Positions 1-16,726 of a DNA stretch of 64,000 nt are shown piece by piece; the stretch's first letter is position 1, and the number at the start of each line of letters is the position of its first letter. A model generated the notes under the pieces. It made no database searches, was not told the origin of the DNA, and worked only from the letters and a program-made list of their open reading frames with translations. Made by a program: the position numbers and the translations under genes. The DNA comes from Acidobacteriota bacterium (GTDB lineage: Bacteria; Acidobacteriota; Terriglobia; Acidiferrales; UBA7541): NCBI GenBank assembly GCA_003154775.1, contig PMES01000101.1, positions 1-64,000 on the forward strand. The letters are read 5' to 3'.

Positions 1-129
1 TTCTGCCTCGCCATCGTAGCCGGATGCGGCCCAGCCGAGAGCCGCGTCGTCGGCTTTTGGCCGACCAAGAGAAGAGCGGTGCCTTCGGCACCGGGAGTTG
101 GACGGACACGTCACCCCGTTTCGGGTGCT

Positions 130-240
130 GCACGGCAACCGAGGTTGCTATGCGGGAACTTGCTGCAACCGCGGCGGCTAGCAACTTTCCGCTGGCCGTG
201 GTTCCTATCCTCCAATCCGTGGTTCCCGTATGGGAACTTG
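130..240. other. Inverted-repeat region upstream of mobilisation genes (candidate oriT)
   Basis: The sequence contains a perfect palindrome GCAACCGAGGTTGC at 135-148, a further GCAACC at 165-170 that can pair with the same GGTTGC arm, and a second hairpin GTTCCC-GTAT-GGGAAC at 222-237. GGGAACTTG occurs at both 153-161 and 232-240. In R388-like plasmids the origin of transfer lies just upstream of trwA-trwB-trwC, and the same gene order follows here. The oriT role is inferred from position and symmetry; no nick site was identified. The first 306 bases hold no convincing gene, and ORFs 24-371 and 79-285 look like chance frames. Confidence 0.4.
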
Positions 241-306
241 TTGATTCTGTTGGGCGTCACGCCGCGCCCGATTGCCTGCCTTTGATTCAGAACTATGGAG
301 TGCCAC

Positions 307-636
307 ATGCCCACGCCACGGAGCAAATCCATCAGCACCAAAGTTACCGAAGAGGAGTACGCGCAGTTTGAAGCCCTCGCGGGCGATCAAACGATCAGTG
401 AGTGGGTGCGCGATGCATTGCTGAAGGCTGCTGAGCCTAGTCCCGCCGAGCAAACTATTGTGGCGGAACTGCTGGCCCTGCGAATGATCCTGATGAATAT
501 CCTATTCAGCATTGCCAATCGCGAGCAGCTCACAAGCACGGCTATGGACGACATTATTAAACGGGCCGACGCGAGTAAGTTGGCGAAAGCGATGGAACGG
601 CTGACAAGCGCAACTACGGGACCACAGAGGGGCTGA
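307..636 (+). CDS. Ribbon-helix-helix type mobilisation accessory protein (TrwA/MobC-like position)
   Basis: This 109-residue protein opens with a short basic stretch and then STKVTEEEYAQFEALAG and ISEWVRDALL, the strand-helix-helix pattern of relaxosome accessory proteins that bind oriT. The ORF track starts at ATG 295, but ATG 307 is preferred because GGAG at 297-300 sits six bases before it. The C-terminal half is helical and hydrophobic (ALRMILMNILFSIAN). It is followed by a coupling-protein-like gene and a MobF relaxase, the order trwA-trwB-trwC. The role at oriT is inferred from the fold pattern and context. Confidence 0.6.
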   Translation: MPTPRSKSISTKVTEEEYAQFEALAGDQTISEWVRDALLKAAEPSPAEQTIVAELLALRMILMNILFSIANREQLTSTAMDDIIKRADASKLAKAMERLTSATTGPQRG

Positions 637-661
637 GAGACAACCCAGTCGGAGCGAAGCA

Positions 662-1537
662 ATGCGCATGGAATGGGGTCGAGCAAAGAGCACCGTAGGA
701 CCGAGCACCCCGCCGGTGTACACCTACGTCCTCGTGCTCCTCTCCGTCGTGGTAACTCTGGGAGTCCAAGGCTTCCGTTACGAGCGAGTCTGGACGCCCC
801 TTGAACGACATTATTTTGCTGCTTATTCGGCCTCGCAGATAGCCGGTATTGTTCGCGACAACGGCTGGTACACCCTGCTGCAAGTTGTTACCCGTAAGGG
901 GAGCCGATTGGCGCTGGACAGTGACGTAGCGTCTGCAGTTACAGAAAGCGGAGAGAACACTTTCGCACTCACCGAGGAAGCCTTGAATCATGGCGCGATG
1001 CGCCTTGAATTCCATCGCAGTTATTGCAACAACTCCGAGATGCACGCCTACCTCGGTAACTGGATTTATCAAAACCAAACCTTTATGGATTTTGTGCGGC
1101 CAGCCTTGTGGGCCGGGCTAGTTCTGTTTTTCACGGGCCTGTTGCCGGCGACCTATCTGGACCGCAAACATTCTATTGCGCTGCGTTATGGGAAGAGACC
1201 AAGCGGCCCGAATTTGATGAATGTGGCGAAGCACAATCCCACACACCGCTTCCGGGGCTTTGGTTTGGTGAACGGGAAACGCACGATGCTGGACAGAGTG
1301 TTCGGTCTTAACAAGAAGCTCCCTGTTCCACTATGCAAAGAGAATCCCCACGTTTTGATGATGGCGGAGCCCTCGCCTCAAGCACCAGTTAAGAGCGCAG
1401 CCCCTGATACGGGAATAGATCGCGGGTATCCAGGGAATGGCACGCGACAGGAATCAGCGCCACAAGAGCCAGCGCCGAGTCAGGAACCAGAGTTAGAGCA
1501 CGCCGTGACATCCACCAAGAGGCACTTCTTCGAGTAA
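662..1537 (+). CDS. N-terminal part of a type IV coupling protein (TraD/TrwB-like), ATPase domain absent
   Basis: The 291-residue protein has a transmembrane helix near residues 20-37 (TYVLVLLSVVVTLGVQGF) and another near 143-160 (PALWAGLVLFFTGLLPA). These flank a periplasmic domain, as in VirD4/TraD coupling proteins. The cytoplasmic part runs YGKRPSGPNLMNVAK and LPVPLCKENPHVLMMAE, which resembles the segment leading into the coupling-protein Walker A loop (HILIMGDTGSGKS in the family). Here the sequence turns into a Pro/Ala/Glu-rich tail ending TSTKRHFFE, and no Walker A or B is present. GGAG seven bases before ATG 662 supports the start. I infer an internally deleted coupling protein. A distinct short membrane protein is the alternative. 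Confidence 0.5.
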   Translation: MRMEWGRAKSTVGPSTPPVYTYVLVLLSVVVTLGVQGFRYERVWTPLERHYFAAYSASQIAGIVRDNGWYTLLQVVTRKGSRLALDSDVASAVTESGENTFALTEEALNHGAMRLEFHRSYCNNSEMHAYLGNWIYQNQTFMDFVRPALWAGLVLFFTGLLPATYLDRKHSIALRYGKRPSGPNLMNVAKHNPTHRFRGFGLVNGKRTMLDRVFGLNKKLPVPLCKENPHVLMMAEPSPQAPVKSAAPDTGIDRGYPGNGTRQESAPQEPAPSQEPELEHAVTSTKRHFFE

Positions 1538-1542
1538 AGAAC

Positions 1543-4317
1543 ATGCTTACCATTTCCAAGCCGCTCAGTGCAGGCCAAGCGCATGCTTATCATCAGGAGG
1601 AGTTTAGCAACGCGCAGGAGAACTACTACAGCGAAGGCGACCGGATACGCGGCGAATGGCACGGGAAATTGGCCGAGAAGTGGGGCTTGCGTGGTGGCGT
1701 CCAAGAGGAACAATTTCGGCGGCTCAGCGACGGTCAGCATCCGGTTAGCGGCGAGCAGTTGGTTCGCCATCAGACGGCGCGTGAATATGTGAACGAGCAA
1801 GGCAAAACGGTCAAGGCGATGGAGCACCGCGCAGGCTGGGATGCCACCTTCTCCGCGCCCAAAAGCGTATCGCTGACGGCGCTTGTGGGCGGCGATGAAT
1901 GCGTGCAGGAGGCCCATCGTGCCAGCGTCGGAATCGCGCTGGGCGAGATGGAGCGCTACGTCCAGGCCCGGCTTGGAGGAAATGTTCCACCGGAGACAAC
2001 CGGGAATTGGGTCGCCGCAAGATTCGAGCACGACAGCGCCAGGCCCGTAAACGGTTATGCAGCCCCGCAGCTTCACACGCACGTGGTCTTCTTCAATCTG
2101 ACAGAAACGGCCAATGGTGAAACACGGCCCCTTCAACCGCAGGAACTCTATCGCACGCAGCAATATGCCACCGCCGTATATCGCTCGGAACTGGCGCACC
2201 GTCTACAAGGGTTGGGCTACGAGATCGAGCACGGCAAGAGCGGTCAACCGGAAATCAAGGGGTATAGCCATGAGTATCTCGAAGCTTCCAGTCCACGCCG
2301 GAAACAGATCAAAGAGCATCTGGCGATGGAGAATCAGAGCGGCGCGGCCGCTGCGCAGATCGCCGCCCACCACACACGCGAGGCAAAGATCGGGTTGTCG
2401 CATGAGGAGATGCAGCAGCGGCACAAGGACATGGCAACTGAGTTTGGGGATCAACCTGACCACGTGAAGGCGGAGGCCGAAGGAAGAGCGCGCGACGTTG
2501 GCCAGGATACGGGAAAGAAGATTGCTCACTCGGCTGTGACCTTCGCCAAAGAACGAAACTTCGAACGCGATGCCGTAGCCGATGGGCGCGCTTTGTTGAC
2601 TGACGCACTCAGGCGCTCCATGGGTGGAGCGACGCTGGCCCAGGTGAAAGCGAATTTCGAAGAGCGCATCGAATCAGGCGAGTTCGTTGAAGTCCAAAGG
2701 CAAGGTAACTCGCCCGACCGGGCGTTTACGACCGCTGAGATGATCGACTACGAACGCGACACGATCAATACCATGCGCGCGGGCCAAGACCGGCATGCGG
2801 CGCTAGCGACTTTTGGCACGCGCTGGGCTATGCGGGAAGCGCATGGCCATTTGAGCGACACGCAACGCCGGGCTGTGGAACAAATCTTGTCGAGTCGCGA
2901 TCAAGTGACGGCGCTTGAAGGCGTGGCAGGTGGGGGTAAGACTACCTCCCTCGCGGCGGTCCGAGAAGCCGCTGAGCGAGAGAACTACATCGTCAAGGGT
3001 TTAGCGCCCACCTCTCGCGCGGCACAGAAGCTAGAAGAAAGTGGAATCAAATCGAACACGTTGCAACGCCATCTTGCCCAAAGCTATGAGGGACACGAGG
3101 AACGGAAACGCCTTTACGTCCTGGACGAATCGAGCCTGGCGAGCACGAAACAAATGAACGAATTCCTCCACCGGTTGCAAAAAGAGGATCGCGTGCTGCT
3201 CGTTGGCGACACACGCCAGCACCAGGCCGTTGAAGCGGGCAAGCCGTATCAGCAGTTACAGGAAGCCGGAATCCAGACGACTCGACTGGACGAGATCGTG
3301 CGGCAGAAAGACCCGACGCTCAAAGAAGTTGTGGAAAAGCTCTCGCGAGGGCAAGTCCGAGAGGCGATGGAGAAACTCGATGCCACTGGCCGAGTGCATG
3401 AGATCTCCGACCGGGACGAGCGTATCGCCACAATCGCGCATGAATATAAGAAACAACCTGAAGGCACGCTTGTGGTGTCCCCCGACAACCAGTCACGAGT
3501 GGCGATCAATGAAGCGATTCACTATGCCATGCAGGATACGAACCGGATACCGTACCTCGAGTACCGGATGAAAGTCCTGGTCGCCCGGCAGGAGGTTACA
3601 GGAGCTGACCGCCAATGGGCCGCCCAATACGAACCCGGCAATGTGGTGCGGTACGCCAAGGGCAGCAAGACGCTCGGCATTGCACCAGGCGAATACGCGC
3701 GAGTCGAAAGCGTTGACGAGAAACAGAATCGCGTCACGGTTGAACGGAAGAACGGCCAGCGGCTGAGCTACGACCCTCGCCGTTTACAAGGCGTGGCGTT
3801 GTATCGAGAGGCAGAGCGAGCATTCAGTGAAGGCGACCGCATACAGTTCGCCGCTCCGAATCGAGACCAGCACGTCGCCAACCGTGAGCTGGGCACTATC
3901 GAGAAGATCGATGAGAGTGGCCACCTCAGAGTCCGTCTCGACTCGGGCCGCGCGATCGCGTTCAACATTCGAGACAATCCTCATCTCGATCACGGCTACG
4001 CAGTGACCAGTCACAGCAGCCAAGGACAGACTGCTGATCGCGTGCTCATCCATGTGGATACCGAGCAGGCGGGAGAAAAGCTCGTCAATCGTCGCTTGGC
4101 ATACGTCGCAGTGTCGCGTGGACGCTACGACGCCCAAATCTATACCAATGATAAAGCCGCTCTTGCCGAAGGGCTTGGCCGCGAGGTTTCACATCGATCT
4201 GCTTTGCAGTCCACACGCGCAGCAGAACCACGCGTCGCTCAAAAGAGCGAGCCAACCTCTTCTCCAACTCTGGAGAAGGAGCGAACAATCGAACGAGACC
4301 TCAGCCCTGGCCGCTAG
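1543..4317 (+). CDS. MobF-family conjugative relaxase with C-terminal helicase (TrwC/TraI-like)
   Basis: At 924 residues this matches the size of TrwC-type relaxases. The N-terminal transesterase domain (about 1-300) has candidate catalytic tyrosines at 16 and at 28-29 (ENYYS) and the metal-binding His cluster around FEHD (H163) and QLHTHVVFFN (H178, H180). The SF1 helicase part has Walker A GVAGGGKTTSL near 459-469, Walker B VLDESSLAS near 525, and motif VI YVAVSRGRYDAQIYTND near the C-terminus. It should nick oriT, stay covalently bound to the strand and unwind it during transfer. It starts five bases after the coupling-protein-like gene. It appears intact, in contrast to that neighbour. 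Confidence 0.93.
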   Translation: MLTISKPLSAGQAHAYHQEEFSNAQENYYSEGDRIRGEWHGKLAEKWGLRGGVQEEQFRRLSDGQHPVSGEQLVRHQTAREYVNEQGKTVKAMEHRAGWDATFSAPKSVSLTALVGGDECVQEAHRASVGIALGEMERYVQARLGGNVPPETTGNWVAARFEHDSARPVNGYAAPQLHTHVVFFNLTETANGETRPLQPQELYRTQQYATAVYRSELAHRLQGLGYEIEHGKSGQPEIKGYSHEYLEASSPRRKQIKEHLAMENQSGAAAAQIAAHHTREAKIGLSHEEMQQRHKDMATEFGDQPDHVKAEAEGRARDVGQDTGKKIAHSAVTFAKERNFERDAVADGRALLTDALRRSMGGATLAQVKANFEERIESGEFVEVQRQGNSPDRAFTTAEMIDYERDTINTMRAGQDRHAALATFGTRWAMREAHGHLSDTQRRAVEQILSSRDQVTALEGVAGGGKTTSLAAVREAAERENYIVKGLAPTSRAAQKLEESGIKSNTLQRHLAQSYEGHEERKRLYVLDESSLASTKQMNEFLHRLQKEDRVLLVGDTRQHQAVEAGKPYQQLQEAGIQTTRLDEIVRQKDPTLKEVVEKLSRGQVREAMEKLDATGRVHEISDRDERIATIAHEYKKQPEGTLVVSPDNQSRVAINEAIHYAMQDTNRIPYLEYRMKVLVARQEVTGADRQWAAQYEPGNVVRYAKGSKTLGIAPGEYARVESVDEKQNRVTVERKNGQRLSYDPRRLQGVALYREAERAFSEGDRIQFAAPNRDQHVANRELGTIEKIDESGHLRVRLDSGRAIAFNIRDNPHLDHGYAVTSHSSQGQTADRVLIHVDTEQAGEKLVNRRLAYVAVSRGRYDAQIYTNDKAALAEGLGREVSHRSALQSTRAAEPRVAQKSEPTSSPTLEKERTIERDLSPGR

Positions 4318-4365
4318 GCGTGCCACCTGCTCCTACGGTCGCCCACCTTGGCTCTTCTTCCGGTT

Positions 4366-4632: not shown

Positions 4633-4905
4633 TCACTCCCCATTGCTTTCATTCTGCACGAATACTTTGAGCTGCCTGAAATTGCCCGTTTTCCAGTCGC
4701 TCAGATCGGCTTCCTCGATCACGGTGGAAGTGACAATCCTCCAACACAATTCGGTCCTGTCTGTGAATCGGACGCGGATATAGAGAATGCCTTCCTCGAA
4801 TGCATGGTCAGTCCAATGCACGACCTTGCCATGGATACCTGGGTATTGCTTGCCGTGGATAATTCCCCGAGGGGACAGCCTCACAGGTGACTTTCGCTTC
4901 GTCAT
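4633..4905 (-). CDS. Small beta-rich hypothetical protein, fourth gene of the operon
   Basis: The 90-residue protein starts MTKRKSPVRLSPRGIIHG and continues with alternating hydrophobic strands (GILYIRVRFTDRTELCWRI). The longer ORF in the track (150 aa) includes upstream sequence that overlaps the preceding gene. ATG 4905 is chosen because it forms an ATGA overlap with the stop at 4902-4904, the same junction used twice earlier in the operon. No family is recognised. The strand-rich centre could be a small SH3-like or beta-barrel fold, but that is only an impression. Confidence 0.55.
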   Translation of the reverse strand: MTKRKSPVRLSPRGIIHGKQYPGIHGKVVHWTDHAFEEGILYIRVRFTDRTELCWRIVTSTVIEEADLSDWKTGNFRQLKVFVQNESNGE

Positions 4906-5420
4906 TGGTTGGAATCCTGCTCTCGCGTCGGCGTGGTGTCGATTCGTGAATCGCTGGTTGGTGGCTGTGACGGATTCGCGCGTTTTGCTGTGCGCTTTCT
5001 CGTCGTCTTTCGAGGCCTCTTCGCAGTGCGCTTTTGTTTCTCTGCCTGCTCTACTTCGTAGCGCTTCTCGTCGTTGAAATCCCAATCGGGAAGGATGATC
5101 AATCGCGGCGGGAGTCCCTTCGCCTTGCGTGCTTCTTCGCGATGTCTGATCTCAAGATAGATATCATCTGGGTCTGTAATCCTCTTTTTGTGCTCACTCA
5201 GAAATTTGTATGCCGCAAGTGCATCGTTTTCGACGATGGCATCAAATTCGTCAAAAAACTGCCGATTCGCCTCCACCTGGGCGCTCTCGACATGAGCCCT
5301 GGCCCACCGAATCATCTCGCTTCGATAGGTCGGCACCTTTTCCATGCGCTCAAGCGCACGAATGACATGTTCGAACTCTTCGTTCAAGGCAAGTAGTTCC
5401 TGGAAGAGATGCAGCTTCAT
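4902..5420 (-). CDS. Paralogue C of an unrecognised three-member family (DPDDIYLE / KGLPPR motifs)
   Basis: The 172-residue protein has a helical N-terminal part of about 80 residues, then DPDDIYLE at 83-90 and KGLPPRLIILPDW at 101-113, followed by a Lys/Arg-rich tail (KRPRKTTRKRTAKRANP). The two upstream genes carry the same motifs at the same residue numbers. Start ATG 5420 overlaps the preceding stop by ATGA. The basic tail could bind nucleic acid or another acidic partner; this is inference. The family is not recognised and no catalytic motif is evident. Confidence 0.7.
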   Translation of the reverse strand: MKLHLFQELLALNEEFEHVIRALERMEKVPTYRSEMIRWARAHVESAQVEANRQFFDEFDAIVENDALAAYKFLSEHKKRITDPDDIYLEIRHREEARKAKGLPPRLIILPDWDFNDEKRYEVEQAEKQKRTAKRPRKTTRKRTAKRANPSQPPTSDSRIDTTPTREQDSNQ

Positions 5421-5872
5421 TGCTTCTTCCTTTCAGCAATCGCTTTAGAGGAAGAGCCTCGTTTGCTCCTTGCCCTACGTTTCTTGGCAGCCTGAGTCTT
5501 CTTGGCGGTGAGGAGTTTCTCTTCCTCCTCAGCGGACCACGGCAGCACGACGATCCGCGGAGGAAGGCCCTGCTTTTTCCGCTGCACATCACGGTCCTCG
5601 GCCTCCAAAAACACATCGTCCGGGTCTTTGAGCCATTGCAGGTACTTGTGATGGATTCGACTCCAATGCGTTTGGTTCGCCTGTTCGAAGTCGTTCGCTT
5701 CGCTCGTGACCTCGAATCCAATTTGTGCTCTCACGTATTGAACCTCGTTCGAGAGCGGCACGAGCACGTCGGACCTCTGACCAGGGCAGGCAGTGAGCCG
5801 TTTGAGGAGGGTTACGGACTCGCGGAGATTGCGATCGAGTAGGGCAAGAAGTTCGTAAGCAGTTTGTTTCAT
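5417..5872 (-). CDS. Paralogue B of the three-member family
   Basis: The 151-residue protein has helices in the first 80 residues, DPDDVFLE at 83-90, QGLPPRIVVLPW at 101-112 and a basic tail (KKTQAAKKRRARSKRGSSSK). The start at 5872 forms an ATGA overlap with the stop of paralogue A, and its own stop forms an ATGA overlap with paralogue C. The motif spacing matches A and C exactly while the rest differs, which points to old duplication with selection on the motif block. Function unknown. Confidence 0.7.
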   Translation of the reverse strand: MKQTAYELLALLDRNLRESVTLLKRLTACPGQRSDVLVPLSNEVQYVRAQIGFEVTSEANDFEQANQTHWSRIHHKYLQWLKDPDDVFLEAEDRDVQRKKQGLPPRIVVLPWSAEEEEKLLTAKKTQAAKKRRARSKRGSSSKAIAERKKQ

Positions 5873-6336
5873 GTCCCGCTACCTCCTTCTGGACTCTCCT
5901 GCTTGGCGTCGCCAGTGTTCCGGGACTGTTCCGATTGTGGAGGGGGCGCAGACGCCGCAGCCTTCTGCATGGCGAGGATGCGGTCGTCGTCAGACTGAGT
6001 CCACGGAAGAAACACGGCACGTGGTGGCAACCCCTTTTCGCGGCGAAGCCACTCACGGGCTTTCACATCGTGGTAGATGTCGTTGGGATCTTCCTCGGCC
6101 TTCTCGCGCTTCCGGCGAATCCGGTAGAAGTGGTTCTCCTCCTCCTGCTCTTTCTGCGCGATCTTGCACGTAAAATGGTTATTCGCTTCGGCGCGCAATT
6201 CGCTCAGACTGGTGCGGACTTTGCTAACGTAATCGGGAGCTGCCATATCCAGCTTCTCTATGATGTTGAGGGATGCAAGGGCTTGGCTGAGTCCCTGATT
6301 GAATTGAAACAAGACTTCGTAAACACGAAGATCCAT
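5869..6336 (-). CDS. Paralogue A of the three-member family, first gene of the operon
   Basis: Taking ATG 6336 (MDLRVYEVLFQF) gives 155 residues and places DPNDIYHD at 83-90 and KGLPPRAVFLPW at 101-112, identical to the positions in B and C. The longer track start at 6387 would break this register. AGGAAAGGA lies upstream of the chosen start. A charged helical stretch (QKEQEEENHFYRIRRKREKAEED) precedes the motif. The tail is Ala/Pro/Gln-rich and lacks the basic run of B and C. The gene opens a five-gene minus-strand operon behind the relaxase. Function unknown. Confidence 0.65.
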   Translation of the reverse strand: MDLRVYEVLFQFNQGLSQALASLNIIEKLDMAAPDYVSKVRTSLSELRAEANNHFTCKIAQKEQEEENHFYRIRRKREKAEEDPNDIYHDVKAREWLRREKGLPPRAVFLPWTQSDDDRILAMQKAAASAPPPQSEQSRNTGDAKQESPEGGSGT

Positions 6337-6810
6337 CGAACTATATCCTTTCCTGTGCGAGAGGCGGATCTCGCGGGTTCGAATCATTCCGCTCCGTCAC
6401 GAGCGTCAAGCGTGCCGTTCTATCTGTTGAGGCACACGGATAGCGAGGCGGTCGAAAGTCCGACCGAAGCGGAGAGACACACTCAACGATTTTCAGTTAG
6501 GGGGGAGATTCAGCGACTGGCTCAGGAGGGGTTCGAGTCGGAAACAAAAGGAGCGATGGAGGTTGCGCCCAAAATGGGAAATGGATAACTTCTCTTACAG
6601 CCATCATTGCACCTCAGACGTGCGATTGTGGTCAGGGGCGCGTTCGGTGTTCAAGCACCGGCGCGTCCCGCTCAACCCAAACAGGAACGACGCAATACAT
6701 CGCTAGTTCTATGCAAATAGCGCCATTCGCATGAGAGTATCGCAAACCAAACTGTTTGTGTCAACCCCCCACGACTGGCGAGTTCGGCTCATTCCTCCTA
6801 AGATAGGGCT
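6337..6810. other. Divergent intergenic region
   Basis: This 474-base stretch separates the minus-strand paralogue operon from the plus-strand KGG gene and so should hold both promoters. It includes short G-runs and an AAACTGTTTGTGTCAA segment at about 6747, but I could not assign a convincing -35/-10 pair. The long plus-strand frame reaching 6588 looks like a chance ORF. Confidence 0.4.
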
Positions 6811-7149: not shown

Positions 7150-7758
7150 GTGCCATGGATTTTCGGTCCCGCCTTTCCGGGCCATCCCAAGACAGTTGAA
7201 ATGCGTGAGCTAAAGAACCTGGATGTGGAATCAAGAGCTAAGGCGTTCAAAGCAAGAGCTGATGCATTTTTCATCAAACAAGTCGATCATCTCCAGTCGC
7301 CATCGCTTTGGGTGCCGTTTCCCCTTGCTGTGATGACGTGCATTGGAATTGAGATGGTGGGCTCTTATAAGTTCGGTGATGCCCCGAATGATCGCAACGA
7401 TCACTTCAAGAAGACCGTCGAAGACATTGATGTAGGCTTTTCTACAGAGCAGTTGACCCCGAAGGGAGACAAGAAAAAGCTCAGCTGCTTCATCTATCAG
7501 GGATTCAGAAATTCGCTCGCGCATGGTTACTATGGCCAATGGGTGTTCATTACACACGACGAGAAGAAGGCTCGAACTTTCCGCTATAGTGCTGCAAGGA
7601 ATCTTGTCGTGTTGAATGTCTATTGGTTCTACGGACAGTTCAAGAAGACGTACAACCGCTATTTTTCAGACCTGCTGGCGGGAACCGATTCAAAGCACGA
7701 CCCACTTAAGACGTTTAATGAGACCCTTGAGAAGAAGTTTGAGCTCTGGCTCAGGTGA
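7150..7758 (+). CDS. Putative HEPN-like protein, partner of the SIR2 gene
   Basis: A 202-residue protein starting at GTG 7150, chosen because AGGAGG at 7138-7143 is six bases upstream; the ATG at 7155 is in another frame. The key segment is FIYQGFRNSLAHGYYGQW near residues 114-131. RNSLAH fits the R-(polar)-xxx-H signature of HEPN ribonucleases. The rest is helical with aromatic patches (NVYWFYGQFKKTYNRYF), consistent with a helical bundle. Its stop is 23 bases before the SIR2 gene, so the two are probably co-transcribed. An RNase or a toxin-antitoxin-like partner role is inference. The motif also occurs in inactive HEPN-like proteins. Confidence 0.55.
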   Translation: MPWIFGPAFPGHPKTVEMRELKNLDVESRAKAFKARADAFFIKQVDHLQSPSLWVPFPLAVMTCIGIEMVGSYKFGDAPNDRNDHFKKTVEDIDVGFSTEQLTPKGDKKKLSCFIYQGFRNSLAHGYYGQWVFITHDEKKARTFRYSAARNLVVLNVYWFYGQFKKTYNRYFSDLLAGTDSKHDPLKTFNETLEKKFELWLR

Positions 7759-7781
7759 ATGCTAGCGAAGTCGGCTAACCA

Positions 7782-10700
7782 ATGAAGAAAAACACTGCAA
7801 TCGAGCAACTGCCAGACTTTCCAGCAATCAGACAGATTCAGGGGGCTCTGTGGGGAGTCACCGAGACGCGCGGTGCAGCGGTGCTGATCGGGGCCGGATT
7901 CAGTCGCAATGCAGTGCTCCCGGCACCTAATTCTCCCAAACCGCCACTTTGGACTGATTTCTTCCGGATCATGAAAGAACGCCTGTACCCAGGTTCGCGA
8001 GAAAAAGACACGACATCTGATCCCCTCCGGCTTGCGGAGGAATACAAGGCCGCATTAGGGCCAGCAGCGCTAGAGACCCTTATCTACGAGCTCGTTCGAG
8101 ATAAGGAATGGAGGCCAGGTCCACTTCACCGCAAGCTTGTGCATCTCCCATGGACAGATATCCTGACCACGAACTGGGACACGCTTTTGGAGAGTGCGGC
8201 AGACGTTACCGACAGGGAAGAGACATATGACACCGTAAGAACGATTGCCGACATACCTCGCACGCGCTCTCCCCGGATCGTGAAGTTGCACGGTAGTATG
8301 CCATCAAACCCTCCATTCATCTTTACTGAAGAGGACTACAGGACTTTTCCGAGGAATTTCGCCCCGTTTGTCAATCTAGTCCAGCAAGTTCTGATGGAAA
8401 ACGAACTCTGTCTCGTGGGATTTTCTGGAGACGATCCGAACTTCCTTCAGTGGTCAGGCTGGATACGAGATCAACTCGGTGACTCTGCGCGCCGTATTTA
8501 TCTTGTCGGGGTTTTGAATCTGTCCCCTGCGCACAGGAAATATTTGGAAGCGAGGAAGGTCACGCCGATTGATTTTGCGCCCATCGTTGACGAGGCAGAT
8601 GGTGAGGATTGGCACAACGTGGCTTCTGGTTTGTTCTTGGACTTCCTGCTCAACTCAAAGCCAAAGGCTGCCTCACAGTGGTTGTCGAACACGGGGTCAA
8701 TTCGGTCGCAACAGTTGCTCGGGATGTCGCTAAACCGGACTGAGAGCGCAGGGCTGGTAGGGAGTTTCAAGGAACTTGTCACTGCTTGGCAAAAGGAACG
8801 CGAGTCCTATGCCGGCTGGCTGGTATGTCCATCGGGGGACCGAACTCGCATCAGGTCTGAGATCGGTAACCCTGAATACGTCTTCAGGCAGGTGCACGAG
8901 CATCTCCAAGCTCCCGAGCGAGCCACAGCCTTGTACGAAATTCTGTGGCGTCTTGATTTAGCATTTGTGCCCCCGTCCGTCTGGTTCCGCGGAGTATTGA
9001 CCGAACTCGTCGAAGACTCCTCTTCTATTGTGAAAAAGCGGCAACGCTTTGAAATCGCTTTGATTCTCCTGCGTATCGCACGCGAGGAACGGGACCGTTC
9101 CTTGTTTGAACGCTGGGTTATATTTCTCAAAACGAATACCAGCTCTGACAAGGATGTCGTTGCAGCGATTGCCTATGAGGAGAGTCTGTGGGCTCGCGAT
9201 CATTTAGACTATTCGGCACTTGAGAAGCTAGTGCCTACTATCACTGGGGAAGATCCGGCATGGAAGATAAGGCGCGCGGCTCTCCACTATGAATTGGGTG
9301 AGTCCGACAAAGCCGCGAAACTAATTACTGAAGTACTTCAAGAAATCCGCGAGCGCTACGTTCGGGACCGCAAGTCGATTTGGAACATTTCTCGGCTTGG
9401 GTGGGCTCTGTTTCTCGCTCGTGGTGCCAGACTTAACTCCGTCCAGCCGGAGAATGACGAACCACTCATTGCCTCTAATGAGTGGCCAGACTATTTTGTC
9501 AGGAATAAGTGTCTGTCTTGGGATGAGCTGGCCGAATTAGATCGCCAAATCAGCGAGGAATTTCGGGAGACGACAGAAGGCACACAATCCGAAAGCGCAC
9601 TTTTTGAACCAGGCGCTTATACAACCACTGTGCGGTTTTCGAGTTCGTTAGGCAGGGCGATGAACGACACTGTACGGGTTGCAGACACAATTGGCCTGCC
9701 GACAATGGCCGGATCAGTTGATGTGATGCGTTCCCGTTTTTCCCGAGCAGTTGAGTTATCAAGCAGCTATGACGAAGCCGCGTTCTTGCGCACGATCCGA
9801 ATTCTGAAAGGGCCTTCGGACAAACTGATTGAAAAAGTGTTCGGTCGTGTCCAAGTGGCTCGTATACCCTACGCTACTGCACAGAGATTGATCGACGTTT
9901 TGTGGACAGCGATCAACTTTGGACGGATGCGGTTTCCCAGCCCGAGCAGTTTCCTCCAGCCTGGTTTCAATGAGTTTTGGGTTGACCGTTTACGAGTTCT
10001 AGTTGAGGTCCTCTCTCGTTTGGTTGTTAGACTCGATGGTGAGCAGGCCATCGCGGCATTTCGTAAGGCTGTTTCTCTTGCTCATGCTCCGGACTGGAGA
10101 TATTGGGCGCTGTTTGAACCACTCGGGAATCTGTTAAACCGCGCTCTCTTGGCGACTCCGCCTCGCGAGCGTCAAGGACTGCTCCTGGAGATCCTGAATC
10201 TGCCTCTTCCAGATGAGCGGGGCATCCAAGGACAGACTGGCGGCCCACTGGATGAATGGCCCGAAGTGATGGCTCGCTTTCCGGGCAGAATAAGAGGTCG
10301 CGGTTCCGATGAGGCTGGATTTACAGCACGAGTGGCTGTCCTACTTTCGAAACTGATCTGTGGCGATCCACTAACTCGAGGACGAGCAGCGATTCGCCTT
10401 GGCTATTTGCAACGAATGGGTTCACTGACTCCCGAGGAAGGTATCTCATTTGGGAAAGCCGTGTGGTCGAAGCGAGAGTCTGCTTCGGCTTTTCCGCAAC
10501 ACATTAGTTTACTTGCACACGTGCTGTTCGACATTCCGGGGCACGACAAGAGTGATTTGACGCGACTCTTCAGGAGTAATGTTGTCGCCAAGACTTTGTC
10601 CGGTCTCGTCAGCCCCGATCCAATTACGGAAATTGTCGGCGCGACCCGCGCGCGAAGTGATGGATCAAGAGCATTTGAATTAACCAGCGATGAAGCACTC

Positions 10701-11423
10701 AAGCTTTTCGATCTAATCCTGGTCTGGCAGCCCCGTCCCGTCACAATAGACCTTGACCGCCACAACGCCAAAATGACAGACGTCTTTGGCCTCGCACTGG
10801 CGGAGTCAATTTTTCCGGTTGTAGATCTCAAACACTTGGGACAAGACAGAATTGAAAAACTATTCAACAGAGTTGAGGCAGGAACATTGAATTCTGCCCT
10901 CATCGCCCTTGCCGATATCGTCCGATTGGATGGATCTCGGGAGAATAGGGCTGTCGAATTACTTCATCGGGCGATTTTCAGTCGTGAACGGGATGCCGTC
11001 GTTTACAGCCTCAGTGGCATTAATCGTTGGCGAATTCGTTCAAGAGAAGGCTCACTTGGAAAGATACCTCAGCGATTGAAGCAAGCTGCAATCACACTTG
11101 CTGTTGGGGCAAGAGAGCCTTGGTTGTCTTCGGCTTTATACCTCGCAGGCAAGTTCGTGGAAGATGGTGACGTCAGTGATGGCGACAGGCAAGAGTTGCT
11201 AGTTGTACTCGACAAGTTGAGAACCGAGACGGCATACACATCTTGGGAAACGAGCGACCCGCGGACTATCAATATCACTCACGTCCGTGCGCAATGTGTG
11301 AGGCTGGCAGAACAATTGCGGCAGGCTGGTGTGGTTCATGGCGCGATTGCATTTTGGATCGACCGCTCCATGGATGATCCGATGCCAGAAGTGAGATATG
11401 CCCTTGCCGATCTGGAAGAATAG
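7782..11423 (+). CDS. Large SIR2-domain protein, candidate antiphage NADase (Dsr1-like size)
   Basis: This 1213-residue protein has an N-terminal SIR2-like domain (about 15-290). It shows the nucleotide-binding GAGFSRN at 37-43, TTNWDTLLE at 129-137 with candidate catalytic N131, KLHGS at 168-172 with H170, and GFSGDDPNF at 213-221. The remaining 900 residues are helical with no recognised enzymatic motif, as in defence-associated sirtuins that sense phage proteins with a long C-terminal region. Related proteins deplete NAD+ on infection; that activity is known for the family and only inferred here. The upstream HEPN-like gene may form a two-gene system with it. Confidence 0.8.
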   Translation: MKKNTAIEQLPDFPAIRQIQGALWGVTETRGAAVLIGAGFSRNAVLPAPNSPKPPLWTDFFRIMKERLYPGSREKDTTSDPLRLAEEYKAALGPAALETLIYELVRDKEWRPGPLHRKLVHLPWTDILTTNWDTLLESAADVTDREETYDTVRTIADIPRTRSPRIVKLHGSMPSNPPFIFTEEDYRTFPRNFAPFVNLVQQVLMENELCLVGFSGDDPNFLQWSGWIRDQLGDSARRIYLVGVLNLSPAHRKYLEARKVTPIDFAPIVDEADGEDWHNVASGLFLDFLLNSKPKAASQWLSNTGSIRSQQLLGMSLNRTESAGLVGSFKELVTAWQKERESYAGWLVCPSGDRTRIRSEIGNPEYVFRQVHEHLQAPERATALYEILWRLDLAFVPPSVWFRGVLTELVEDSSSIVKKRQRFEIALILLRIAREERDRSLFERWVIFLKTNTSSDKDVVAAIAYEESLWARDHLDYSALEKLVPTITGEDPAWKIRRAALHYELGESDKAAKLITEVLQEIRERYVRDRKSIWNISRLGWALFLARGARLNSVQPENDEPLIASNEWPDYFVRNKCLSWDELAELDRQISEEFRETTEGTQSESALFEPGAYTTTVRFSSSLGRAMNDTVRVADTIGLPTMAGSVDVMRSRFSRAVELSSSYDEAAFLRTIRILKGPSDKLIEKVFGRVQVARIPYATAQRLIDVLWTAINFGRMRFPSPSSFLQPGFNEFWVDRLRVLVEVLSRLVVRLDGEQAIAAFRKAVSLAHAPDWRYWALFEPLGNLLNRALLATPPRERQGLLLEILNLPLPDERGIQGQTGGPLDEWPEVMARFPGRIRGRGSDEAGFTARVAVLLSKLICGDPLTRGRAAIRLGYLQRMGSLTPEEGISFGKAVWSKRESASAFPQHISLLAHVLFDIPGHDKSDLTRLFRSNVVAKTLSGLVSPDPITEIVGATRARSDGSRAFELTSDEALKLFDLILVWQPRPVTIDLDRHNAKMTDVFGLALAESIFPVVDLKHLGQDRIEKLFNRVEAGTLNSALIALADIVRLDGSRENRAVELLHRAIFSRERDAVVYSLSGINRWRIRSREGSLGKIPQRLKQAAITLAVGAREPWLSSALYLAGKFVEDGDVSDGDRQELLVVLDKLRTETAYTSWETSDPRTINITHVRAQCVRLAEQLRQAGVVHGAIAFWIDRSMDDPMPEVRYALADLEE

Positions 11424-11735: not shown

Positions 11736-12656
11736 ATGGCTAGCGTCTACGAAATCGTCACTGAGAAAATTATCAAGCAGCTTGAATCCGGCGTGGCTCC
11801 CTGGCGCAAGCCCTGGACCTGTCAGATTCCCGCAAACCTGCTCACGCAAAAAGAGTATCGCGGCCTCAATGTCTTTACTCTCGCCTCGCAGGGGTTTCCA
11901 TCGCGATTCTGGCTTACCTTCAATCAGGCAACGAAGCTTGGCGGAAGGATTCGCAAGGGCGAGAAGTCTTCCCCCGTCATCTTCTGGAACGTTGGCGAAG
12001 AGCGAGAGATGACCACGCAAGACAGCAAGAAAGAGACTTCGCGGCCTTTTCTGCTCCGTTATTACAGCGTCTTCAATTTCTCGCAGACGGAAGGCATCGA
12101 CATCCCCGCTTCCCTTCTGCAGGAGGCCCGCACCAACGATCCGATTGCAGCGTGCGAGCAGATTGTGGCGAACATGCCGAATCCACCAGCGTTCCAGCAA
12201 TCCGACAAAGCATGGTACTCACCCAGCAGAGACGTGGTCGGTATGCCAGCACGCGGCCTCTTTCATTCATCGGAAGAATTTTACGCCACCGAATTCTACG
12301 AATTGGGTCACAGCAGTGGACACCCAAAGCGCCTGCACCGGGAGAACTTTGATAACCCGGCTCATTTTGGCTCTGAATCCTACTCGAAAGAGGAACTCAT
12401 CGCGGAGATGACCGCTGCCATGCTGTGCGGCGTTGCGGGAATCGAACAGAAGACGATTGAAAACTCCGCCGCCTATCTCAAGACGTGGATTGCACGGATC
12501 AAGTCCGATTCGCGGTTGCTTGTCTCCGCCGCTTCGCAGGCCCAGAAAGCCGCCGATTTCGTCCAAGGCAAAATTGCGCATCAGGAAGGCGAATGGGAAC
12601 TCGTGGGCGTAGGTGACACCAAACGCAATCCTACCCTCACTAATACACTCACTTAG
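11736..12656 (+). CDS. ArdC-family antirestriction protein with altered zinc motif
   Basis: The 306-residue protein has the DUF1738/ArdC N-terminal domain (YEIVTEKIIKQLESGVAPWRKPW, then YRGLNVFTL) that binds single-stranded DNA in the family, and a C-terminal zincin-like domain. Where relatives have an HExxH motif, this protein reads EFYELGHSSGHPKRL, so the first His is Tyr188 (codon TAC) while E189, H192 and H196 remain. Glu at AEMTAAMLCG is kept. ArdC proteins protect entering plasmid DNA from restriction, which suits the neighbouring relaxase. The Tyr substitution may abolish metal binding. It is a single-base change from CAC. Confidence 0.85.
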   Translation: MASVYEIVTEKIIKQLESGVAPWRKPWTCQIPANLLTQKEYRGLNVFTLASQGFPSRFWLTFNQATKLGGRIRKGEKSSPVIFWNVGEEREMTTQDSKKETSRPFLLRYYSVFNFSQTEGIDIPASLLQEARTNDPIAACEQIVANMPNPPAFQQSDKAWYSPSRDVVGMPARGLFHSSEEFYATEFYELGHSSGHPKRLHRENFDNPAHFGSESYSKEELIAEMTAAMLCGVAGIEQKTIENSAAYLKTWIARIKSDSRLLVSAASQAQKAADFVQGKIAHQEGEWELVGVGDTKRNPTLTNTLT

Positions 12657-14445: not shown

Positions 14446-14712
14446 ATGCAACACGTTACTCTTGCTCTTCCTGACGAACTCTCAGCAGCGCTTGCTGCTC
14501 CCGGTCAAGATTTGTCCCGCGCCGCCTTCGAGGCCCTGGCTCTGGCGGCCTATCGCGAACGCAAAATTTCGGCTGCCCAACTACGACAGTTGCTAGGCTA
14601 CGAAACCCGCATCGAGGTTGATGCCTTTCTGAAGAACCATGGCGTCGAACTGGAATACGCGATGGAAGACCTTGAGCGGGATCGCGAGACGCACCGGCGA
14701 CTTGGCCTGTAG
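14446..14712 (+). CDS. UPF0175-family antitoxin
   Basis: The 88-residue protein reads VTLALPDELSAAL, AAFEALALAAYRERKISAAQLRQLLGY and a C-terminal ELEYAMEDLERD, the standard UPF0175 layout. Members are small DNA-binding antitoxins often paired with DUF3368 PIN toxins. The toxin ATG follows the stop codon directly with no gap, so translation is coupled. It should neutralise the PIN protein and repress the operon, which is known for the family and inferred here. Confidence 0.88.
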   Translation: MQHVTLALPDELSAALAAPGQDLSRAAFEALALAAYRERKISAAQLRQLLGYETRIEVDAFLKNHGVELEYAMEDLERDRETHRRLGL

Positions 14713-15246
14713 ATGCAATCGATTGTAGCTGACACAACTCCCCTAAACTATCTCGTACTCATCCAAGCAGCCGAGATTCTTCCGAACCTATATAGAAAGG
14801 TTTTGATCCCTCCCGCTGTGAAGGCCGAACTGGCCCATGCAAACACGCCACATATCGTGCGCTCGTGGATTTCACAGGCCCCCTCATGGTTGGAAGTGGT
14901 GAACCTGAAGCAGCCCGTCGATTCGGCTCTATCACATCTGGACGCTGGCGAACGCGAAGCGATATCGCTTGCGTCCGAACTCCAAGCTAGCCTTTTGCTG
15001 ATGGACGAACGAGACGGAGTGGCTATGGCCCGCCACCGCGGATTGACGGTGATCGGCACGCTCGCTGCGCTGGACCTTGCTGCAGTCCGTGGACTCATTG
15101 ACTTGCTGACGATGTTCGACCGGTTGCGCGCGACCACGTTTCGATCACCACTTCGCCTCATGGTTAGCATGCTGGAGCAGGATGCCGAACGCAAGAAACG
15201 TCAAGAAGGCGGGCCCGAATATGGTGGGCCTTCTAACGCCGGTTGA
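14713..15246 (+). CDS. DUF3368 PIN-domain toxin (RNase)
   Basis: The 177-residue protein begins MQSIVADTTPLNYLVLIQ, with the first PIN aspartate at D7, and continues with LDAGEREAISLA (acidic E in the second site) and LLLMDERDGVAMARHRGL carrying the third acidic cluster. The pattern GTLAALDLAAVRGLI then follows, as in DUF3368 proteins. PIN toxins are Mg-dependent ribonucleases. The C-terminal KKRQEGGPEYGGPSNAG looks unstructured. It forms a toxin-antitoxin pair with the preceding gene. Confidence 0.88.
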   Translation: MQSIVADTTPLNYLVLIQAAEILPNLYRKVLIPPAVKAELAHANTPHIVRSWISQAPSWLEVVNLKQPVDSALSHLDAGEREAISLASELQASLLLMDERDGVAMARHRGLTVIGTLAALDLAAVRGLIDLLTMFDRLRATTFRSPLRLMVSMLEQDAERKKRQEGGPEYGGPSNAG

Positions 15247-15968: not shown

Positions 15969-16448
15969 CTATAACCCCTGTTCCATATCGCTAAGCAATG
16001 TGTCGGCAGCGGGTTGAAACTCGGCCACCCGCGTCTGGCATCGCGCCACAACGTGATAAACGCCAATAACGGTGAGCCGCGCTTGCTCCACATCCTCTTT
16101 GGTTATTTCCTGCCAGCAATTTGCATGAATGGTGTTGCGGAGATTCCGCACCTTATCGGCAACGCAGGTTACGCATTCTCTGCCCTGTGGATTATGTGCT
16201 TCCAAGGCGTCAAAGAGTGGGTCAGCGTCGAAGCTCTCGATCAGCTTATAGAATTTCAAGTTTGGACCGTATTTGATACGCAGAAGTGATTCAAGAGCCG
16301 CACCGAAATTCATCTCCGCTTCGGGCCAAAGCTCGTGACTGGCACACAGTACGGCACGATATACGTAGTAAGCACCCATGTCGTGATATTTTTGCTGCTC
16401 TGGAGTAGCGGTTAGCGGGTTCATATTTACTCCAGCCTCGTCGGTCAT
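15969..16448 (-). CDS. Helical hypothetical protein with RN-xx-H motif, third gene of an operon
   Basis: Start ATG 16448 is chosen because it overlaps the preceding stop as ATGA; the track start 16475 lies inside the upstream gene. The 159-residue protein is mostly helical (YHDMGAYYVYRAVLCASHELWPEAEMNFGAALESLL) and contains VRNLRNTIHANCWQE. The first Arg-Asn of this segment precedes His with six residues between, compatible with a HEPN-like Rx4-6H motif; the second is one residue too close. The fold could be a HEPN or SAV_6107-like bundle. No function assigned. Confidence 0.55.
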   Translation of the reverse strand: MTDEAGVNMNPLTATPEQQKYHDMGAYYVYRAVLCASHELWPEAEMNFGAALESLLRIKYGPNLKFYKLIESFDADPLFDALEAHNPQGRECVTCVADKVRNLRNTIHANCWQEITKEDVEQARLTVIGVYHVVARCQTRVAEFQPAADTLLSDMEQGL

Positions 16449-16726
16449 TTGTAAGGTCCGCCAGTTGGCATGCAACTGCCGTCAGGAGACAAGAAGAAAT
16501 TCCACTTGCGCCCGTCACTCATCTGAAGCGTCAGACGTTCGTTCCATCCTGCGTCTATCTTCGCCGAACTGTCTATGTGCATCCGCGCAACAGAAAAATC
16601 CGGAACGACGCCCGCACTGTCGAGTGCATTGACTCTATGGAATCTGCGCTCAATCTGAATTTCGTACCGAACATCTGCAAGAAAGTCCTTGCCCCGATAG
16701 ACCTTTCCCAAACCCTTTTCGGTCAT
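16445..16726 (-). CDS. Beta-rich hypothetical protein, second gene of the operon
   Basis: The 93-residue protein (KVYRGKDFLADVRYEIQI, LTLQMSDGRKWNFFLSPDG) alternates hydrophobic and polar residues as a small beta-sandwich or barrel would. It lies nine bases after the upstream gene and shares an ATGA overlap with the downstream gene. No catalytic motif or known family is recognised. Confidence 0.55.
   Translation of the reverse strand: MTEKGLGKVYRGKDFLADVRYEIQIERRFHRVNALDSAGVVPDFSVARMHIDSSAKIDAGWNERLTLQMSDGRKWNFFLSPDGSCMPTGGPYK

Follow-up and report, generated by a model that had tools for sequence, protein, structure and literature searches.

The window, i.e. the whole stretch of 64,000 nucleotides that was analysed, contains two adjacent genes which had been proposed to form a coupled defence system. 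These genes and the features surrounding them are the following:

1543–4317, + strand: MobF/TrwC relaxase-helicase, assigned by family profile; its module (1–4319) is repeated in the genome
7137–7143, + strand: Shine-Dalgarno-like GAGGAGG, read from the sequence, separated by a 6-nt spacer from the GTG at 7150
7150–7758, + strand: orphan ORF of 202 aa with a GTG start and a Shine-Dalgarno sequence; possibly a divergent HEPN protein
7201, + strand: alternative in-frame ATG of the small ORF, which would give 185 aa
7507–7527, + strand: codons of RNSLAHG, the candidate HEPN motif (residues 120–126 of the 202-aa translation)
7759–7781, + strand: intergenic gap of 23 nt, read from the sequence
7782–11423, + strand: DSR2-like protein of 1213 aa, consisting of a SIR2 NADase (approximately residues 1–290) and an all-helical C-terminal region
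8172–8174, + strand: codon of N131 (TTNWD), aligned with the catalytic N133 of B. subtilis DSR2
8289–8291, + strand: codon of H170 (KLHG), aligned with the catalytic H171 of B. subtilis DSR2
11736–12656, + strand: ArdC-type antirestriction protein, assigned by family profile

A check against the sequence confirmed the coordinates, lengths, order, strand and 23-nt gap of the two ORFs as well as all motifs quoted in the preliminary description; its placement of the pair near a relaxase and an antirestriction gene also holds, the MobF/TrwC and ArdC-type genes being the ones that flank it. The GTG of the small gene is preceded by a strong Shine-Dalgarno sequence; in contrast, inspection of the sequence upstream of the SIR2 ATG at 7782 revealed no clear one. 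As, moreover, neither a terminator-like nor a promoter-like site was called on the + strand between the two genes, both their co-transcription and their translational coupling are plausible. Directly after the stop codon of the small gene, an open frame of eight codons begins (MLAKSANQ, 7759–7785, + strand), whose own stop overlaps the SIR2 start (ATGA); it could serve in reinitiation or be due to chance. Further downstream, at 14446–15246 (+ strand), the gene of an 88-aa protein is directly followed by that of a PIN-type DUF3368 protein matching PADLOC PDC-S70, and these two look like a toxin-antitoxin pair. On the opposite strand, at 15969–16475, lies the gene of a 168-aa protein with the string RNLRNTIH, which has a HEPN-like look and no Pfam match.

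The 1213-aa protein had been described as a SIR2-domain effector of the antiphage type, which agrees with our profile searches: Pfam SIR2_2 matches with E 1e-20, the Dsr2 model of PADLOC with E 5e-147 (residues 16–934), and NCBIfam NF041819 (Dsr2) with E 2e-153 (residues 29–1181). The label "Dsr1-type", however, has to be replaced, as the size class is that of DSR2 and no Dsr1 model matched the protein. With 513 bits, the protein falls short of the NF041819 equivalog cut-off of 1400, so that the Dsr2 equivalog rule does not assign it; for this reason we file the protein as a diverged member of the DSR2 family and not as an NF041819 equivalog, and its trigger and details may differ from those of DSR2. 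A sequence search of the PDB gave B. subtilis DSR2 as the best match, covering the SIR2 part only. According to a manual count on the alignment, N131 and H170 correspond to N133 and H171, the catalytic residues of that enzyme (PMC11087589). Among 84 full-length proteins, including that of the window, H170 is conserved in 83 and N131 in all, although the latter figure is not independent, as loci were partly picked via patterns around N131.

An AF2 model of residues 1–1190, based on 50 sequences, reached a pLDDT of 87.3 and a pTM of 0.78; in this model, the C-terminal region is long, all-helical and has the DSR2 fold. When the model was compared with the PDB, all 50 matches listed were DSR2 chains (best E 1.5e-14, with alignments of about 1,200 columns), at a sequence identity of 11–13% in the structural alignment. 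The TM score to these chains is about 0.8 for the SIR2 part and 0.3–0.5 globally; a flexible solenoid would depress the global value. The 1213-aa protein is a diverged DSR2-family protein, and most likely a phage-triggered NADase that uses its own helical C-terminal part as sensor.

With respect to the genomic setting, 100 close relatives of the host were searched, and neither the 202-aa gene nor the DSR2 gene was found in them. The relaxase module has close copies on three other contigs (81–83% DNA identity), and two further, more distant relaxase copies (69–71%) exist in the genome; behind each copy lie different genes. Since the pair is absent in close relatives and the module recurs with other genes behind it, the pair is accessory cargo adjoining a mobilisation module. 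MobF/TrwC relaxase genes were seen six times in this one genome (G000, contigs C14, C54, C57, C60, C92, C150). Three adjacent ORFs of 172, 151 and 172 aa without family matches occupy 4902–6387 (– strand) of the window; as all three are similar to a single stretch (L104, 8008–8295) that follows another copy of the relaxase, they are probably tandem paralogues.

In order to compare the neighbourhood of related genes, DSR2 relatives were fetched from GTDB contigs (the best 80 of 305) and complemented by loci from the phylum (6), from plasmids (4) and from viruses (2), which gave about 90 loci; some of these are cut by contig ends, such that the upstream side is not complete in every one. The preliminary description had staked its proposal on conservation of the 202-aa protein beside SIR2 homologues. 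No relative of it was detected in the flanks of the about 90 DSR2 relatives, either by tblastn or by unfiltered phmmer on nearby ORFs, nor anywhere in 50 genomes bearing DSR2 relatives. The nearest DSR2 relative in the sampled class (37% identity) stands alone. The nearest of all (about 40%) is located close to a contig end, and its 448 nt of upstream sequence contain nothing resembling the 202-aa gene. A same-strand ORF at a distance of –30 to +100 nt precedes the DSR2 relative in 30 of the 85 loci that have an upstream ORF; these close neighbours are unrelated to the 202-aa protein and mostly to each other. Genes near DSR2 relatives include AbiE, Cas5, Mrr, AbiJ and restriction-modification genes, a variety that lends support to a function in defence and argues against a fixed partner.

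Two recurrent or conspicuous arrangements were observed among these loci. In L030, L035, L056, L057 and L068 (partly also in L032 and L061), which stem from different hosts, the DSR2 relative has a large helicase gene on one side and a gene resembling DNA methyltransferases on the other; with roles read from sequence, this is possibly a restriction-like system with the DSR2 gene inside. On a Rhizobium rhizogenes plasmid (L011, 9554–13580), a caspase-family gene, a metallophosphoesterase gene and two TIR-domain genes adjoin the DSR2 relative and form a defence-like cluster.

Beyond these loci, the 202-aa protein was searched for in four partly overlapping sets of whole genomes (396, 101, 50 and 299), which covered the phylum, the class, close relatives of the host and, with the set of 50, DSR2-bearing genomes; no relative was found. 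The same holds for tblastn against plasmids and phages and for scans of genomic and viral contigs with sequence patterns, which depend on perfect matches to short peptides and would overlook remote relatives. Pfam, NCBIfam and PADLOC gave no match at E values of up to 1 (10 in the case of Pfam), the PDB gave none either, and a profile comparison with the DSR2 alignment gave nothing. Several candidates were examined and discarded: L094 and L095 contain frames with stops and no coherent match, and L143 is the start of a rhomboid-like membrane protein. The phage family phrog_12258 (E 0.003) covers a motif-free part of the protein, and in genomes its profile matched mainly via another stretch. Judged by these comparisons, the 202-aa protein is an orphan, apparently lineage-specific, which the DSR2 family does not require.

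The small protein had been tentatively assigned to the HEPN class on the basis of an Rx4-6H signature (for the definition, see PMC3710099). This motif, with a polar residue following the arginine, is present as RNSLAH; it is, however, no evidence for HEPN by itself, because two thirds of comparable ORFs carry it (196 of 299 ORFs of 120–260 aa in the fetched loci), as do 59% of shuffled versions of the protein. More restrictive versions are rarer: RNxxxH occurs in 9 of the same 299 ORFs; RNxxAHG, which was chosen post hoc after the sequence had been seen, occurs in 2 when ORFs of any length are counted (848). The second ORF with RNxxAHG belongs to L021 of Rhodopseudomonas palustris (3732–4187, – strand, 151 aa, RNHCAHG), where it precedes the DSR2 relative in the opposite orientation, at a distance of about 0.8 kb; this protein is HEPN-looking and has no Pfam or PADLOC match. 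Members of the family HEPN_RiboL-PSP (PF18735) from the same phylum contain the same string as the 202-aa protein (RNGIAHGDY and similar), but a profile of these members matches it in only 11 motif residues, with an hhalign probability of 1%. None of the HEPN family profiles of Pfam, NCBIfam and PADLOC matches the protein, and a single-sequence AF2 model (pLDDT 41.7) is too poor for a fold search. We assign about even odds to a divergent HEPN domain; the protein is perhaps a divergent HEPN RNase or regulator.

Taken together, the locus consists of an orphan gene followed by a diverged NADase of the DSR2 family that is of an ordinary kind. The best explanation, to which we give a probability of about 0.72, is a lone DSR2-family NADase that is carried as relaxase cargo and does not require its orphan neighbour. 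Family, fold, catalytic residues, accessory distribution and the missing conserved partner are the basis of this reading; on the other side, a coupled operon at this locus would agree with the spacing of 23 nt and with the absence of a clear Shine-Dalgarno sequence upstream of the SIR2 gene. The mode of action can be modelled on B. subtilis DSR2, in which binding of the phage tail tube protein to the C-terminal part is reported to switch on the SIR2 NADase, an activation that is blocked by DSAD1 (PMC10973363, PMC10981675, PMC11087589); DSR2 has been placed among the single-gene systems (PMC10973363). As the 1213-aa protein has the same architecture, the same mode of action is likely. The defence function would then reside in this protein, most likely acting alone, the gene being accessory cargo downstream of the MobF relaxase module. 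Its helical C-terminal region would detect a phage component, as that of B. subtilis DSR2 detects the tail tube protein, and binding would rearrange the SIR2 oligomer, which might then hydrolyse NAD+ through N131 and H170. The loss of NAD+ would halt the infected cell before phage release. NADase activity, trigger and abortive infection are thus predictions made by analogy, and the 202-aa ORF would be a probably real, co-transcribed neighbour of lineage-specific origin.

Compatible with the lone NADase is the assumption of two independent cargo genes, according to which the 202-aa protein acts separately, in defence or as a toxin and possibly as a HEPN RNase, and became a neighbour by chance in a variable cargo region. 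The differing genes behind the relaxase copies, the PDC-S70-like PIN protein further downstream and the clustering of defence genes near DSR2 relatives without fixed partners argue for it, whereas the tight spacing suggests shared expression and the separate role of the 202-aa protein is putative; we see the chances of this assumption as evenly balanced. 

Less convincing is the idea of the preliminary description that a HEPN-type partner restrains or licenses the NADase, or adds an RNase to it. Such a two-component system would agree with the common strand, the short gap lacking terminator and promoter calls, the unequal Shine-Dalgarno sequences and the rare, PF18735-like RNxxAHG. The comparative evidence, however, gives it no support: relatives of the 202-aa protein are absent from the DSR2 loci and genomes studied, close but unrelated upstream ORFs are common there, HEPN profiles do not match, and the characterised DSR2 acts as a single protein (PMC10973363). 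We consider such a system unlikely; coupling of the two proteins is possible and, if real, apparently lineage-specific. A more far-reaching variant, namely that the NADase has gained a new, fast-evolving HEPN-like partner which gates it or cleaves RNA, resulting in a lineage-specific abortive-infection operon with two effectors (RNA and NAD+), appears very unlikely.

Finally, a spurious open frame or remnant is highly improbable: the 202-aa ORF has no relative in any collection searched, but none of the other five frames reaches its codon score (0.137, compared with 0.037 for the DSR2 gene when read in frame), an open stretch of 219 codons is expected by chance with p ~2e-5 at the local base composition, and a strong Shine-Dalgarno sequence precedes it. 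The codon score and the low chance of the open frame indicate that it is probably a gene.

The family thereby gains a DSR2-like NADase whose identity to the other relatives found does not exceed about 40% and which adjoins a multi-copy mobilisation module, and the comparison of about 90 loci presents DSR2 as a family without a fixed partner gene. If the orphan neighbour does control the NADase, it would be, to our knowledge, the first DSR2-type protein partner of this sort.

Among known systems, B. subtilis DSR2 (PDB 8k98, 8wkx and others) is the best whole-length structural match: it likewise has a SIR2 domain at the N-terminus, including the catalytic Asn and His, and a long helical C-terminal region. 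It is shorter (1005 versus 1213 aa), and a pairwise sequence comparison picks up similarity in the SIR2 part only, the C-terminal region being far diverged. The Dsr2 profiles NCBIfam NF041819 and PADLOC PDLC02184 (1215 and 1222 positions) belong to the same length class as the 1213-aa protein and match it over its full length or nearly so. ThsA of the Thoeris system (SIR2-SLOG) has the SIR2 NADase core in common with the protein; its SLOG sensor responds to a signal that the TIR protein ThsB produces, whereas the 1213-aa protein possesses the helical region in place of that sensor.
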